From Methanomicrobiales archaeon (GTDB lineage: Archaea; Halobacteriota; Methanomicrobia; Methanomicrobiales; JACTUA01): 63,457 nt of DNA. Below the pieces are notes generated by a model, which did no database searches, was not told the DNA's origin, and saw nothing but the letters and a program-made list of their open reading frames with translations. The stretch lies in assembly GCA_030019205.1 (NCBI GenBank), contig JASEFH010000015.1:1-63457 (forward strand). Reading direction: 5' to 3'. Numbering within the stretch: the first letter of the stretch is position 1; each line of letters begins with the position of its first letter. Shown piece after piece: positions 40,180 to 46,987 of the stretch. A program made the position numbers and the translations under genes.

Positions 40180-40275
40180 ATCTCATCTAATATTTTAAAA
40201 TTCTAATATATTAAAATATCTATTTTCGATTAATTAAATTTTTTATAAATTATTATATTTCATCAAATTTTATTG
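40180..40275. other. AT-rich island between cofD and a hypothetical gene
   Basis: Nearly 100 bases are about 85% A+T inside GC-rich DNA, made of runs such as AATATATTAAAATATC and TTAATTAAATTTTTTATAAA. It covers the last codons of cofD (encoding LISNKI) and the promoter region of the downstream gene. On the minus strand it has no long pure T-tract but many short T-runs, so it could end the cofD transcript as well as start the next. Confidence 0.6.
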
Positions 40276-41168
40276 CTTATTAATCCGATCAAAGCCTCTG
40301 ACAGCGTTATGCTCTTCTCGACAGTCACCATCAGGGTATCCAGCCTCGCCGCCCCCTCGATGGATACGGGATCGCGGACGTCCTGGACGAAGAGGTCAAC
40401 GAACTCTTCGTACAGCCTGTACGTTCCCAGAGAACTGGCCTCGCATCCCCAGGCCCGCATCAGCTCGGCGGCCGGTCCGCTCACCGGGCGGTCACCGATG
40501 AACGGGCTGACCGCCACCACGAACGCATTGAGCAGCGCCGGGATCACGCCCTCGCACTCGAGGATGGGGGATATGGAAGTCACCGGGTTGCTGGGGCCGA
40601 TTACCACGGCATCGCTCTCCTCGATGGCGGCGAGCACCGCATCCGTCGCGGCAGGACGGTCCTTGCTCCTCCGCAGGACATCCTGCACCGCGAGCTGCCC
40701 CCGGTGCTTCACCCAGTACTCCTGGAAGTGGAGCAGACCCTGCTCCGTCTGGATGCAGGTGGTCACCGTATCGTCGGTCATGGGCAGGATCCGCGCCGCC
40801 ACGCCCAGCTTCTGCGCGAGCATGGCGGTGCACTCCGTGAGGGTCTTCCCCTCCCGGAGCAGATTGCCCCGCAGTATCTGCACGGCGCGGTCCCGGTCTC
40901 CGATGCGGATGAACTCGTCCCCGCCCAGTTCCCGCAGGACTTCGTGCGTGCGGAAGGTGTCATCGCGGATGCCCCACCAGGTCTCCGTGTTCAGGATGCC
41001 GCCGAAGAGGTAGAGAACGGTATCCACATCCGGGGAGATGTGGTTGCCCGAGATCCAAATGTCCTCGGCAGTGTTGACGATGACGCTGATCGCAGCGTCT
41101 CCCAGCACCTCCCGCATGCCGCGGAGGAGCTTGGGCGTACCGGTTCCCCCCGACAGGAATGTTATCAT
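40263..41168 (-). CDS. cofD: 2-phospho-L-lactate transferase
   Basis: CofD joins lactyl phosphate (or phosphoenolpyruvate)-guanosine diphosphate to Fo in coenzyme F420 synthesis. The 301-residue protein has the signature [18 protein letters not shown] at its start, [19 protein letters not shown] near 35 and [13 protein letters not shown] near 185. I chose ATG 41168: TATA-like ATTCTTTAAT lies about 27 bases upstream, so the mRNA is probably leaderless; a start at 41186 adds six residues. The last six residues fall in the AT-rich island. It is transcribed alone. Confidence 0.94.
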
Positions 41169-41325
41169 CAGCAGTACATGCGTCATTCCATTAAAGAATC
41201 TGCATCATTTCGTTTCCGCCGGCAGCGGCATCTGTTCTGCCGCAGCCGGCACTGCGGCATGACGTGCTGCCACGACCCCCTCTATCCCTTCAATGGGTTC
41301 CAATCGCTCCGCATACCCCCGGTAA

Positions 41326-41374
41326 CATTTATTATCCTCCATTGTCTGAATAATCCATGCCCATCTCAGGGTGA
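41326..41374 (+). promoter_or_regulatory. Promoter and ribosome binding site of the EF-Tu-like gene
   Basis: ACATTTATTATCC at 41326-41338 is a TATA box; GGGTGA at 41369-41374 is a good ribosome binding site 5 bases before ATG 41380. The leader would be about 22 bases. Confidence 0.55.
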
Positions 41375-41379
41375 GCGGA

Positions 41380-41628
41380 ATGGAGAGGTTGATCGGCGAA
41401 GTGACACACTACTTTCCCCGGATCGGGGTCGCTGCCGTGCGGCTCGACGACGATCTCAGCGCCGGGGATGCGGTGATCGTGCGGGGGGCCAGGACAAACT
41501 TCAGCCAGACGGTGAGTTCGCTGCAGCTGGAGCACCGGACCGTCTCCCGAGGCCTCAAAGGGCAGGAGATCGGCATGAAGGTGGATCAGCGGGTCCATAC
41601 CGGCGACAGGATCTACCGGCTGCTCTGA
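41380..41628 (+). CDS. Translation elongation factor-like (EF-Tu domain 2) small protein
   Basis: An 82-residue beta-barrel protein like domain 2 of EF-Tu (GEVTHYFPRIGVAAVRLDD, LSAGDAVIVRGARTNF, KGQEIGMKVDQRVHTGDRIY). Archaea often encode such stand-alone domains, sometimes next to peptidase U32 genes; none is adjacent here. It has no GTPase domain. ATG 41380 is favoured over GTG 41371 because GGGTGA would be part of the coding region for the latter. Its role is unknown and may involve RNA. Confidence 0.8.
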   Translation: MERLIGEVTHYFPRIGVAAVRLDDDLSAGDAVIVRGARTNFSQTVSSLQLEHRTVSRGLKGQEIGMKVDQRVHTGDRIYRLL

Positions 41629-42295: not shown

Positions 42296-42676
42296 ATGCC
42301 GATGACGGAGCCCTACGGCATCACGCAGGAGATATCGAGGAAGATCAAGATCGCCGTGGAGGGGCGGTGCGAGGTATGCCAGGAGACCTGCAGCCTGCCA
42401 GACCTCCGGATCCACCCGATTCCCGGCGGGGACCATCCCGACCTTCAGCGGAACATCCTGATTCTCTGCCGCCTCTGCCACACCCACGTGCACGCTCTGC
42501 CGGTCCCTCCAGAGCAGCAGAGGGCATGGGTGGATCGCCGCCCCATCGTGACGCGGAAGGCGATCCGGCGGATCATGGGATACCGCCTGAAGCCCTACAT
42601 CCCCCCGGATTCCGGGGATCCGGCAGAGCTGTTCGCCGAGGCTGCGCGGAGCTGGGGGCTCAACGGCTCCGGCTGA
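42296..42676 (+). CDS. HNH-type zinc finger nuclease domain protein
   Basis: A 126-residue protein. Residues 24-68 form an HNH-like fold: CEVC, then IHPIPGGDHPDLQRN, ILILCRLCHTHVH. The two CxxC pairs would bind zinc; the usual HH at the first strand is HP here, with the N and final H kept, so nuclease activity is likely but not certain. HNH proteins act in repair, restriction and mobile elements; no such partner is adjacent. ATG 42296 agrees with the TATA spacing; ATG 42302 would also work. Confidence 0.75.
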   Translation: MPMTEPYGITQEISRKIKIAVEGRCEVCQETCSLPDLRIHPIPGGDHPDLQRNILILCRLCHTHVHALPVPPEQQRAWVDRRPIVTRKAIRRIMGYRLKPYIPPDSGDPAELFAEAARSWGLNGSG

Positions 42677-42820: not shown

Positions 42821-44026
42821 ATGAAGATCATCAAGGATCCGGTGCACGGATTTGTCGAGGTGGACGACACCGCTCTTCGGCTGCTCGACTCTCCTCCCCT
42901 GCAGAGGCTCCGCTACGTCAAACAGCTCGGGTTCACCTACCTGGTATACCCGGGAGCGATCCACACGCGGTTCGAGCATTCGCTCGGGACCATGCACCTC
43001 GCGGTCCTGATGTGCCGCAAGCTCTCCCTGTCCCCGGCTGAGACGCTCCTCGTTGCATCCAGCGCCCTGCTCCACGACATCGGGCACGGCCCCTTCTCCC
43101 ACGCCCTCGAACCGTTCATGCAGGAGTTCCTGGGCTGGGGGCACCTGGATGCCGGCGCCCGCCTCATACGGGAAGGGATCGTCGCCGACCTGCTCGAGCG
43201 CGCGGGGATCGAGCCGGCGGAGGCGGCGGAGATGGTGATCGGCCGTCACCCTCTCTCCGGCATCATCCACGGCGACCTGGACGTGGACCGGATGGACTAC
43301 CTGCTGCGGGACGCCCACTACACCGGCGTCCCCTACGGGACGGTGGACGCCCACCGCCTGATTCAGGGGACCATCCGCACCGATGCCGGTCTGATGCTGG
43401 ACGAGAGCGGGATCCACGCCGCCGAGTCCCTGCTGATCGCACGGACGCTGATGCGCCCGTCCGTCTATTTCCACCATGTCAGTCGCATCGCGGAGAGTAT
43501 GCTGGCGTATGCGCTCCACGAGCATCTGCGGGAGGGGGGTGATCTCCCCGCCCTGATGGCGATGGACGATGCCGAGTTCCTGCTCGAACTGCGCCGTTCC
43601 CGGAGTGCGGCAGCGCGGCGGATGGCAGAAGCCGTGTACCGGCGGCAGCTCTTCAAGCGGGCCCTCTATGTGGGGAGCGATCGGGTGAATGTCGCGGCAC
43701 TCCAGAGCGAGAGCGGTTATGCGTCTTCACGGCGGTTCGCGCAGGATATCGCCGAGCGGGCTTCCCTGGACGAGGGCGAGGTGCTCGTCGACATCCCGCC
43801 GATGCCCCGGGACATGGCGGTTCAGGTGCGGGTCCAGAACCGGCACACGGCAACGGTCCTGGAGGAGCTCTCCCCCCTGATCACCACCCTGAACGAGACG
43901 CGGAGGCAGCAGTGGCGCATGGGCGTCTATATGCCCGCACATCACCGTGATAAGGTCGAAGCGGCGGCGACCGAGGTCTTCCACGTGAAGAAGCCCACGC
44001 GGCAGGATAAACTACCGGTAGAGTGA
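42821..44026 (+). CDS. HD-domain phosphohydrolase (SAMHD1/dGTPase-like)
   Basis: A 401-residue metal-dependent phosphohydrolase of the HD superfamily. It begins KIIKDPVHGFVEVDD, the usual start of the SAMHD1-like archaeal group. Metal ligands are visible: H in RFEHSLGTMHLA near 50, HD in LLHDIGHGPFSHALEP near 86-87, and D in HGDLDVDRMDYLLRD near 155. The substrate may be a dNTP or another nucleotide. AAGGAT precedes the ATG. The 3' end runs to within 20 bases of ubiX, and the two may be co-transcribed. Confidence 0.88.
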   Translation: MKIIKDPVHGFVEVDDTALRLLDSPPLQRLRYVKQLGFTYLVYPGAIHTRFEHSLGTMHLAVLMCRKLSLSPAETLLVASSALLHDIGHGPFSHALEPFMQEFLGWGHLDAGARLIREGIVADLLERAGIEPAEAAEMVIGRHPLSGIIHGDLDVDRMDYLLRDAHYTGVPYGTVDAHRLIQGTIRTDAGLMLDESGIHAAESLLIARTLMRPSVYFHHVSRIAESMLAYALHEHLREGGDLPALMAMDDAEFLLELRRSRSAAARRMAEAVYRRQLFKRALYVGSDRVNVAALQSESGYASSRRFAQDIAERASLDEGEVLVDIPPMPRDMAVQVRVQNRHTATVLEELSPLITTLNETRRQQWRMGVYMPAHHRDKVEAAATEVFHVKKPTRQDKLPVE

Positions 44027-44043: not shown

Positions 44044-44598
44044 ATGGAGAGAGAGTTCGTCATCGGGGTGACGGGAGCGAGCGGAAGCATCTATGCCCGG
44101 CGTCTGCTGGAGGTCCTCTGCCGCTCCCACCGCGTCCACATCATCGTATCGGAAACCGCACGCGAGCTCGCGTCCCACGAAGGGGTGAACCTGGACGGGT
44201 TCGATGCGGCATACTACGACAACCGCGACCTGGCTGCACCCATCGCCAGCGGATCGTACCGCTTCGAGCGGATGGCCATCGTCCCCTGCAGCGCCAAGAC
44301 GCTCGCCGCCGTCAGCCACGGCATGGCGAACACCCTGATCGGGAGGGCGGCGGACGTCGCCCTGAAGGAGCGGAGGGGACTGGTCCTGCTGATGCGCGAG
44401 ATGCCGCTCTCCCGTGTCCACCTGCGGAATATGCTGCTTGCCGACGAGAGCGGGGCGACGGTGATGGTGGCGAGTCCGGGTTTCTACCACCATCCCAGGA
44501 CCATCGACGATCTGGTGGACATGGTGGTGGGGCGCGTCCTCGATCACCTCGGCGTGGAGCACGCACTGATGGCGCGGTGGAGAGGATACGATGCGTGA
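44044..44598 (+). CDS. ubiX: Flavin prenyltransferase UbiX
   Basis: UbiX joins dimethylallyl phosphate to FMN, making the prenyl-FMN cofactor of UbiD decarboxylases. The 184-residue protein has the FMN-site GVTGASGSIYARRLLE near residue 8, VPCSAKTLAAVSHG near 80 and MREMPLSRVHLRNM, all typical. ATG 44044 has GGAG upstream and matches family length; GTG 44023 would overlap the HD gene stop. It overlaps ubiD by 8 bases, showing tight coupling with its client enzyme. Confidence 0.95.
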   Translation: MEREFVIGVTGASGSIYARRLLEVLCRSHRVHIIVSETARELASHEGVNLDGFDAAYYDNRDLAAPIASGSYRFERMAIVPCSAKTLAAVSHGMANTLIGRAADVALKERRGLVLLMREMPLSRVHLRNMLLADESGATVMVASPGFYHHPRTIDDLVDMVVGRVLDHLGVEHALMARWRGYDA

Positions 44599-45826
44599 GT
44601 TTATCGAGAAGATGCGGCGGAAGGGGTGCGTCACGGAGATCGACGGCCCGTGCTCCTCCGCGTACGAGGCCCCGAAGATCGCCAGCCGGACGGACAGGAT
44701 CGTGTTCTTCCACGACATCGACGGATCCCGGGCCGTCATGAACCTGACCGCGAACCGGCACTCGCTCGCAGAGGCGCTCGGTATCGCGGAGTCGGAGCTC
44801 GTTCCCCGCCTCGCCGCAGCAGAGTACGCGGGGATGGTCGTGGAAGAGGGGCGGATCGCGATGGAAGAGCCCGATCTCTCCCGCTTTCCCGTAATGCGCC
44901 ACTACCCCGGGGATGCCGGACGGTACATCACGGGAGGGATCGTCTTCGCACGCTGGAACGGCGTGCAGAATGCATCCATTCACCGCATGCTGGTGCTGGA
45001 CGGGCGGCACGCGGCGGCGCGGCTGGTGGAAGGGCGGCACACCCACCTGATGCACCAGGCGGCGCTCGCCTCCGGAGAGCCCCTGCCGATCGCGGTCGCC
45101 ATCGGGGCACATCCGGCGGTCACATTTGCGAGCTGCACGCGGGTGCCGGAGGGGAAGGAGCTGCAGTTCGCCGCCGAACTCCTCGGCGGCGAGATCGGGG
45201 TGCGGAGATGCGCCAACGGCGTCCTCGTCCCGGACGCGGAGATCGTGCTCGAGGGGTATATCGGGCGGATGACCGCCCCGGAGGGTCCGTTCGTCGACAT
45301 CACCGGTACGTACGATTCCCAGCGGATCCAGCCGGTCATCGAGTTCACGGGCATGCACGCCAAGCCGGATCCCATCTACCATGGAATCCTGCCAGGAGGC
45401 GACGAGCACAGGATCCTGATGGGCGTGCCCTACGAGCCCCGAATCTACCGCGCGGTTGCGGGCGTGACCCGGGTGCGGAACGTCGCCCTAACCAAAGGGG
45501 GGTGTGGCTACTTCCACGCGGTGATCCAGATCGAGAAGAGCACGGAAGGGGATGCGAAGAACGCGATCATGGCGGCGTTCGCCGCCCACACTTCCCTCAA
45601 GCATGTCGTGGTGGTGGACACGGATATCGATCCCCTCGATCCCCACGAGGTGGAGTACGCCATCGCCACGCGGGTCAGGGGTGACGCGGATATCATGGTC
45701 ATCACGGGCGTTCGGGGGTCCTCCCTGGATCCGCGGCGGGCAGCGGACGGCACCAACGTGAAGGTCGGCGTGGACGCCACCATGGTGCTGGGCGAAGAGG
45801 CGGAATTCCGGCGCGCGGGGTGGTGA
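44591..45826 (+). CDS. UbiD family decarboxylase, probable anhydromevalonate phosphate decarboxylase
   Basis: A 411-residue prenyl-FMN-dependent decarboxylase. The Arg in QNASIHRMLVLDGRH near residue 137 and the glutamates in EIVLEGYIGRM and APEGPFVDITGTYD near 219-233 match the Arg-Glu-Glu catalytic set. The archaeal mevalonate pathway uses a UbiD homologue to turn anhydromevalonate phosphate into isopentenyl phosphate. Placement between ubiX and an AcnX dehydratase gene strongly suggests that job here. The family call is firm; the substrate is an inference from context. Other UbiD proteins act on aromatic acids. Confidence 0.88.
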   Translation: MREFIEKMRRKGCVTEIDGPCSSAYEAPKIASRTDRIVFFHDIDGSRAVMNLTANRHSLAEALGIAESELVPRLAAAEYAGMVVEEGRIAMEEPDLSRFPVMRHYPGDAGRYITGGIVFARWNGVQNASIHRMLVLDGRHAAARLVEGRHTHLMHQAALASGEPLPIAVAIGAHPAVTFASCTRVPEGKELQFAAELLGGEIGVRRCANGVLVPDAEIVLEGYIGRMTAPEGPFVDITGTYDSQRIQPVIEFTGMHAKPDPIYHGILPGGDEHRILMGVPYEPRIYRAVAGVTRVRNVALTKGGCGYFHAVIQIEKSTEGDAKNAIMAAFAAHTSLKHVVVVDTDIDPLDPHEVEYAIATRVRGDADIMVITGVRGSSLDPRRAADGTNVKVGVDATMVLGEEAEFRRAGW

Positions 45827-45829
45827 AAG

Positions 45830-46987
45830 GTGTTCCTGGATGCGGAGGAGGAGAAGATCCTGGAGGGCGAGTACGGGGAGACCCGCCGCCAGATGATGGA
45901 GATTCTGGTCGCGCTCGGCACGGTCTACGGTGCAGAGAGACTGATCCCCATCAGGAGCGCGCAGGTGAGCGGCGCCTCCTACAAGACCATCGGAGAGTGG
46001 GGCCTGAAGTGGCTGCAGAGCCTCGACGCCCGGGTGGTGGTGCCGACCGTGCTCAACCCGATCGGCATGCCGCGTGAGCAGTGGCAGGAGCTCGGGATCA
46101 GCGAGGCGTTCGCCTCCCGTCAGAACGACGTCCTGGAAGCCTATCGGAATCTTGGCGTGAAGCTCGCGTGCACCTGCACCCCCTATTACCTCCAGGAGAT
46201 GCGGTACGGCGACCACCTCGCGTGGGCGGAGTCTTCGGCCGTCGCCTATGCAAACTCCGTCATCGGAGCCCGCACGAACCGCGAGGGCGGTCCGGGCGCC
46301 CTGGCCGCGGCAATCGTGGGAAAGACGCCCTTCTACGGGCTTCATATCGTGGAGAACCGGAGGCCGCAGGTGGTCGTCGATCTCACGCGCCTGGAGATCC
46401 GGCCGGAGCAGTACGGGGCCCTCGGCTACGTCGTCGGCAGGAAGGTCGGAAACAGGATCCCCCTCTTTCTCGGCATCCGCCCCACCCGGGACCAGCTGAA
46501 GGCGCTCGGGGCCGCGATGGCGGCAACGGGTGCGGTCGCCCTCTTCCACGTGGACCGGATCACGCCCGAGGCCCGGGTGTTCCGCTACGCGCCGGATGGG
46601 CTCGATGCCCTCACCGTCGATACCGACGAGCTTGCCGCGCTCTATGCGGAGATCGAGGTGGATGCGGTGGCCGTCGGCTGCCCCCACTGCTCGGCGGAGG
46701 AGCTGCAGGCGGTCGCCCGCCTTCTCAGTGGCAGGCAGGTTAAAAAGCCCTTCTTCGTCTTCTCCTCCCGGGGCGTCATCCAGGCCAACCCGGAGGCGGT
46801 TATGGCGATCGAGCGGACGGGGGCGCGGGTGTACGCCGACACCTGCATGGTGGTCTCGCCGGGGTTGGAGAGGTATGCCGCCATCATGGTAAACAGCGGC
46901 AAGGCCCTCGCCTACGTGCCCGACATGTGCGGTGCGGTCGCGCGCCTCGGCACCCTGGAGGAGTGCGTGGAGGCGGCAACCACCTGA
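45830..46987 (+). CDS. AcnX-type dehydratase large subunit, probable phosphomevalonate dehydratase
   Basis: A 385-residue aconitase X (DUF521) protein. It has SGASYKTIGEWGLKWL near residue 45, NPIGM, and WAESSAVAYANSVIGARTNR near 125. Cysteines in CTCTPYYL, YADTCMVVSPG and VPDMCGAV can hold an Fe-S cluster. In archaea such a protein, with a DUF126 small subunit, dehydrates mevalonate 5-phosphate ahead of the UbiD decarboxylase. The small subunit is not seen in this window. A GTG start with GGTGA upstream lies 3 bases after the ubiD stop. Two direct repeats of GCGGGTATACG follow the gene (46993-47003, 47007-47017). Confidence 0.88.
   Translation: MFLDAEEEKILEGEYGETRRQMMEILVALGTVYGAERLIPIRSAQVSGASYKTIGEWGLKWLQSLDARVVVPTVLNPIGMPREQWQELGISEAFASRQNDVLEAYRNLGVKLACTCTPYYLQEMRYGDHLAWAESSAVAYANSVIGARTNREGGPGALAAAIVGKTPFYGLHIVENRRPQVVVDLTRLEIRPEQYGALGYVVGRKVGNRIPLFLGIRPTRDQLKALGAAMAATGAVALFHVDRITPEARVFRYAPDGLDALTVDTDELAALYAEIEVDAVAVGCPHCSAEELQAVARLLSGRQVKKPFFVFSSRGVIQANPEAVMAIERTGARVYADTCMVVSPGLERYAAIMVNSGKALAYVPDMCGAVARLGTLEECVEAATT

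Follow-up and report, generated by a model that had tools for sequence, protein, structure and literature searches.

A ubiX–ubiD–acnX gene cassette in a Methanomicrobiales archaeon, very probably for the two steps of the modified mevalonate pathway that are specific to archaea

The modified mevalonate pathway for the building blocks of archaeal membrane lipids is the dominant mevalonate route in archaea (PMC11052028). It has been described in Aeropyrum pernix and Methanosarcina mazei (Hayakawa 2018 and Yoshida 2020, as cited in PMC10040528 and PMC11816158). A stretch of 63,457 nucleotides from a Methanomicrobiales archaeon (assembly GCA_030019205.1, contig JASEFH010000015.1), here called the window, carries ubiX, ubiD and acnX side by side, and comparison of the sequences makes it very probable that both archaea-specific steps of the pathway are encoded by this cassette. 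The genome shares with the two described systems a split AcnX together with its cluster ligands, UbiD, UbiX, isopentenyl phosphate kinase (IPK), an isomerase and mevalonate kinase, whereas its small-subunit gene is unlinked from acnX. The window also differs from A. pernix in that ubiX adjoins ubiD, the two A. pernix genes being found at the distant locus tags APE_RS06980 and APE_RS05555 (PMC8184944). A preliminary description had connected the cassette with the archaeal mevalonate route, and this is upheld by the identity of the genes, the presence of every step searched for, the conservation of catalytic and substrate-site residues, the phylogenetic placement of UbiD and the lack of a match to a rival route.

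If the chemistry known from A. pernix and M. mazei applies, the AcnX large subunit would pair with a DUF126 small subunit encoded at another locus to form a heterodimeric phosphomevalonate dehydratase (PMDh). This enzyme would use a [4Fe-4S] cluster, with C116, C284 and C339 as its ligands, to dehydrate (R)-mevalonate 5-phosphate (MVA5P) to trans-anhydromevalonate phosphate. UbiX would prenylate flavin mononucleotide (FMN) using dimethylallyl (pyro)phosphate, and UbiD would take up the resulting prenyl-FMN (prFMN) to decarboxylate trans-anhydromevalonate phosphate to isopentenyl phosphate. IPK, encoded on contig C1, would then turn isopentenyl phosphate into isopentenyl diphosphate (IPP), which a type 2 isomerase would convert to dimethylallyl diphosphate (DMAPP).

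The three genes lie on the forward strand. The gene for the flavin prenyltransferase, ubiX (44044..44598), has two start candidates, ATG at 44044 (184 amino acids) or GTG at 44023 (191 amino acids). It is followed by ubiD (44591..45826, 411 amino acids), the putative gene for anhydromevalonate phosphate decarboxylase (AMPD), assigned by TIGR00148, PF01977 and its clade in a tree, and by acnX (45830..46987, 385 amino acids), the putative gene for the PMDh large subunit (type IIb AcnX), assigned by PF04412 and the match to the Thermococcus kodakarensis enzyme (TkAcnX). The gene boundaries first described, an overlap of 8 bases between ubiX and ubiD and a gap of 3 bases between ubiD and acnX, were confirmed from the open reading frames (ORFs) and the bases: the overlap is 44591-44598, and acnX starts with GTG immediately past the gap after the ubiD stop codon. 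The run of genes begins one gene before ubiX, at a gene for an HD-domain phosphohydrolase whose end overlaps the alternative GTG start of ubiX by 4 bases, and it is presumably transcribed as a single transcript. The order ubiX–ubiD–acnX is contiguous in 12 of the 14 compared Methanomicrobiales loci, the window included, and thus the arrangement is not a matter of chance; in the remaining two (L071 and L072), ubiX is on a separate contig.

UbiD matches TIGR00148 at 378 bits (cut-off 245) and PF01977 at 190 bits, the latter being the one match in the whole genome and hence the only UbiD found. Its R132, E231 and D236 are invariant in an alignment of 26 rows and, by the alignment and the Fdc numbering, presumably form the Glu-Arg-Asp network. 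A Glu-Arg-Glu/Asp network of UbiD enzymes is named in PMC5818171. The Asp that occupies the second acidic position (EGPFVD) was considered as a mark of AMPD, but E. coli UbiD has Asp at that position as well, and the mark was dropped. Among the relatives of the window UbiD, 78 of the 80 loci kept are from Methanomicrobiales members or euryarchaeal metagenome-assembled genomes, and the last two are from Methanolobus. A tree was built from 59 rows, of which 58 are different; it includes the 10 best of 30 high-scoring UbiD loci of families f9 and f28 (L009-L038) and leaves out the assayed AMPDs of A. pernix and M. mazei. One clade of this tree, with support 100/97, holds 34 archaeal UbiDs, that of the window among them, and 28 of the 34 adjoin acnX. 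Outside it fall HmfF and AnInD, which are the nearest outgroups, a single stretch of E. coli UbiD, and a further 22 archaeal UbiD rows, whose acnX neighbours are unchecked. The first branches within this AMPD-type clade are the UbiDs of L084 and L091, two loci with ubiD–acnX–small subunit–ubiX in one run (L084:5814-9274 and L091:5566-9252); they belong to families f13 and f17, in which AcnX matches are few (2 of the 9 genomes sampled from f13 and 1 of the 4 from f17).

This placement bears on the possibility that UbiX and UbiD serve the decarboxylation of aromatic or quinone acids, with AcnX as a neighbour by chance. The nearest solved relatives of the window UbiD are indeed HmfF (PDB 6h6v) and AnInD, and HmfF acts on a heteroaromatic acid. 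The same is true of AnInD (PMC8988006). However, the genome has only the one UbiD, and the lipid route needs one; the adjacency of ubiD and acnX recurs across families; and the AcnX-associated clade stands apart from both enzymes. Clustering of UbiD with aromatic acid decarboxylases, the outcome that the preliminary description had named as contrary to its claim, is therefore not seen, and a role in aromatic acid decarboxylation is very improbable.

The remaining steps were searched for in the draft genome (2.73 Mb, 73 contigs, 99.6% complete), the search covering HMG-CoA (3-hydroxy-3-methylglutaryl-CoA) reductase, mevalonate kinase, IPK, isomerase, AcnX, its small subunit, UbiD and UbiX. Mevalonate kinase (TIGR00549), IPK (NF040647) and type 2 IPP isomerase (IDI2; TIGR02151) all score over cut-off and are clustered on contig C1, in the order enolase, rpsB, Memo-like, mevalonate kinase, IPK, type 2 IPP isomerase, RNase-J-like and prenyl diphosphate synthase, the last scoring under the cut-offs of its models; the enolase, rpsB, Memo-like and RNase-J-like genes are putatively assigned from their sequences. 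HMG-CoA reductase is encoded on contig C2, also over cut-off, and AcnX is present in one copy. Every step of the archaeal route from mevalonate to DMAPP has a predicted gene. The statement that everything except the small subunit is found in one place accordingly holds for the two archaea-specific steps, but not for the other steps, which are on C1 and C2. In a phylum sample of 196 genomes, AcnX is matched in 160 (158 over cut-off) and UbiD of any kind in 166, which agrees with the route being the commonest in archaea (PMC11052028).

IPP might instead be made by the classical, haloarchaeal or Thermoplasma-type mevalonate route, the cassette doing something else, and GHMP kinases are present in the genome as such a route would have it. 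The four GHMP proteins are nevertheless accounted for as mevalonate kinase, pantoate kinase and two proteins of the RFAP-synthase type, one of these under cut-off. PF22700 (MVD-like_N) has no match over cut-off in the genome, the best, at 15.6 bits against 27, being mevalonate kinase itself, although 6 of 14 control genomes do give a match over cut-off in the same search. By the GHMP list and PF22700, neither phosphomevalonate kinase nor diphosphomevalonate or phosphomevalonate decarboxylase was found on the 73 contigs. A complete classical pathway with diphosphomevalonate decarboxylase, against which the first claim had been set, thus does not appear, and it is very unlikely that IPP comes from one of these other routes.

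AcnX matches PF04412 at 499 bits (cut-off 31.5), and its closest solved relative is the type IIb TkAcnX (PDB 7cnr and 7cns; 5e-96 for 7cnr), with which it shares the family, three cysteines and a glutamate. C116, E134, C284 and C339 do not vary among the 25 archaeal sequences aligned, the window included. They correspond to Cys122, Glu145, Cys297 and Cys356 of the A. pernix enzyme (ApPMDh), of which the cysteines are the [4Fe-4S] ligands and Glu145 is the catalytic glutamate studied (PMC10040528). Ten large-subunit residues have been named at the MVA5P site of TkAcnX (PMC8184944), and eight of these are identical in the window AcnX (G48, S50, N76, E134, S135, S136, K358 and Y362); V49, a backbone contact, is replaced by A, and N53, a side-chain contact to the phosphate, by T.

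Some points weigh against the assignment of the cassette to the modified mevalonate pathway. The identity of the enzymes in this organism rests on sequence comparison. TIGR00148 is a general UbiD model rather than one specific for AMPD, the 34 UbiDs of the clade were collected by similarity to the window UbiD, and the tree rows include no assayed AMPD. The change of N53 to T alters one phosphate contact, yet most aligned rows (21 of 25) have T at this position. The small subunit is encoded on a contig separate from that of acnX, contrary to the published usual arrangement. Finally, the only NCBIfam match of AcnX is to a hydroxyproline dehydratase model, but that AcnX is a hydroxyproline dehydratase of type I or IIa is extremely improbable, as the match reaches 276 bits against a cut-off of 700, the AcnX subunits are split, TkAcnX is nearer than the hydroxyproline enzymes (3.5e-58), and the ligand pattern is that given for PMDh, with the site-1 Cys present as C284 and C339 followed by M-V-V without a cysteine for the type I site C.

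The DUF126 small subunit, which the preliminary description had expected elsewhere in the genome, is indeed encoded there, in one copy at C25:31579-31815 (PF01989, 123 bits). Among solved structures it is matched best by the small subunit of TkAcnX (1e-35), and in the alignment to that protein it retains S-T-V at the position of Ser62-Thr63-Val64. AcnX subunit genes are usually in tandem or neighbouring (PMC10040528). In Methanomicrobiales, where the small subunit is present in 58 of 60 genomes, it lies apart from acnX in 39 of the 40 genomes with both places read (the exception is G162), more than 10 kb off on the same contig in 16 and on another contig in 23, and it was not found at any of the 14 compared acnX loci within flanks of some kb. 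The order HD–ubiX–ubiD–acnX–small subunit, all in one direction, occurs in five loci of three other families (L085, L086, L087, L104 and L105), with about 780 bases separating ubiD and acnX in L104. Small-subunit loci of Methanomicrobiales were examined in 26 of the 58 genomes, those with fetched loci, the window's genome included (L001:1399-1815 on contig C25 and L253-L277). In 22 of them the small-subunit gene adjoins a putative gene for a PAN-like ATPase; the four without this neighbour are from one genus of family f4. The simplest reading is a single relocation of the small subunit in an ancestor of the Methanomicrobiales.

UbiX, encoded by a single copy in the genome, matches TIGR00421 at 199 bits (cut-off 109) and the Flavoprotein family PF02441 at 139 bits, and among solved structures it matches PDB 6m8v (7e-48); the second PF02441 protein of the genome is presumably CoaBC, judged from its sequence. 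E119, Y148 and W179 align with E140, Y169 and W200 of PaUbiX in an ungapped match of residues 58-180 to 79-201, in which M160 falls on F181 of PaUbiX. Position 181 was considered as an indicator of the preferred prenyl donor. Met occupies it in the window, and across 41 aligned rows (40 loci, with the window counted twice and L084 left out) it is M, F, H, I, N, T, S or A. As the residue at this position is not the sole determinant of donor preference (PMC6541611), nothing is concluded. UbiX enzymes accept dimethylallyl phosphate (DMAP) or DMAPP (PMC6541611). The donor would be made downstream of UbiD, and the prFMN cofactor therefore depends on its own product. The relation between UbiX and the pathway may thus be described as an autocatalytic dependence, in which the product DMAP or DMAPP is needed for making the cofactor. 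The feedback loop once proposed as built into the pathway stands to this extent, from known chemistry, while its use as regulation would be a further supposition.

The HD-domain phosphohydrolase gene directly upstream of ubiX (42821..44026, forward strand) encodes a SAMHD1-like protein with an HD_assoc_2 region, matching PF19276 at 242 bits and PF01966 at 45 bits, and PDB 2hek (8e-52) and SAMHD1 entries among solved structures. H53, H85, D86 and D159 are invariant in 18 rows and are presumably metal ligands, as in SAMHD1. The protein thus shares the HD residues and the HD_assoc_2 region with the SAMHD1-like phosphohydrolases (2hek, 2q14, 2o6i and SAMHD1), from which it differs in being linked to ubiX. 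We know of no tested substrate for the archaeal HD group, and in the PMC literature no paper was found that joins an HD phosphohydrolase with UbiX (flavin prenyltransferase) in archaea, or SAMHD1, the HD domain and mevalonate with archaea.

Among the matches listed, 52 of the 93 genomes having both genes carry the HD gene and ubiX on the same strand and no more than 1.6 kb apart. For this count the HD gene was represented by a single row in each of 134 genomes, after removal of 16 second-copy rows from genomes that had no UbiX row; UbiX was represented by 149 genomes, after removal of a second G191 row, and AcnX by the rows down to G035, without G005 and G088. By family, again among the matches listed, the two are linked in f2 (9/9), f5 (3/3), f6 (1/1), f8 (31/31), f14 (2/2), f16 (4/4), f19 (1/1) and f24 (1/1), and not in f3 (0/2), f9 (0/28), f12 (0/2), f21 (0/7), f27 (0/1) and f28 (0/1); loci of f1, f4 and f15 also have the HD gene near ubiX. 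In 34 of the 52 linked genomes among these matches, ubiX and acnX are on different contigs or over 5 kb apart, and hence the HD–ubiX pair can stay together when the cassette splits. Family f8, with its 31 linked genomes, is one in which ubiX has parted from acnX, and the HD gene keeps its place beside ubiX in several families even where ubiX is no longer with ubiD and acnX.

It is conceivable, though unlikely, that the HD phosphohydrolase takes part in the supply of prFMN to this lipid pathway, for example by trimming DMAPP to DMAP or clearing dead-end flavin or isoprenoid phosphates. Against a special role of this kind, the two genes are apart in f9, f12, f21 and f27, the HD family is present in 191 of the 196 genomes, of which at least 35 have no match to UbiX (UbiX being matched in 156 of the 196 at E up to 1e-25), and a tree of 41 HD rows intermingles linked and unlinked copies, a pattern that resembles vertical descent. 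The idea of the HD gene as specific for prFMN is weakened by its occurrence without UbiX and by the mixed tree, and the link to ubiX is taken as a lead only.

Another gene, beside ubiX in other families of the phylum, encodes an LpdD-like protein (PF21758), for example L191:4536-4916. It is in 36 of the 196 genomes, all of families f7, f8 and f14, and in each of these 36 it lies just upstream of ubiX on the same strand, at 6-184 bases by domain edges; one such protein matches solved LpdD chains at 6e-5. PF21758 has no match in the window genome (G000) or in the other 42 Methanomicrobiales genomes sampled. LpdD binds reduced prFMN (prFMNH2) and helps activate UbiD (PMC10865409), and the word 'archaea' does not occur in the available text of that paper; the other PMC papers retrieved for LpdD and archaea are, by their titles, on other subjects. 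The LpdD-like protein is possibly a prFMN chaperone for the archaeal lipid pathway.

On the other side of the HD gene, and outside the pathway, is the divergent cofD of F420 biosynthesis (40263..41186, reverse strand; TIGR01819, 362 bits, over cut-off). Several relatives likewise have cofD diverging from the HD gene, sometimes with fewer than 50 bases between them (L069, L076 and L077). The space that separates these two genes in the window contains two small ORFs (41371-41628 and 42296-42676), with weak matches below cut-off only, to EF-Tu domain 2 and to FpoO/HNH.

The Methanomicrobiales cassette is an ordinary instance of the known, published pathway for archaeal membrane-lipid building blocks, and the window adds a case of the archaeal mevalonate route in this order that has been checked genome-wide. 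The newly noticed and less ordinary details concern arrangement: the separation of the small subunit, the linkage of the HD gene to ubiX and the LpdD-like gene upstream of ubiX, the latter two being offered by the comparison as leads. If the HD phosphohydrolase does take part in prFMN supply, it would form with the LpdD-like chaperone, encoded at the corresponding place in other methanogens, an archaeal module for making and delivering prFMN without oxygen, and Methanomicrobiales would run this module without the chaperone.

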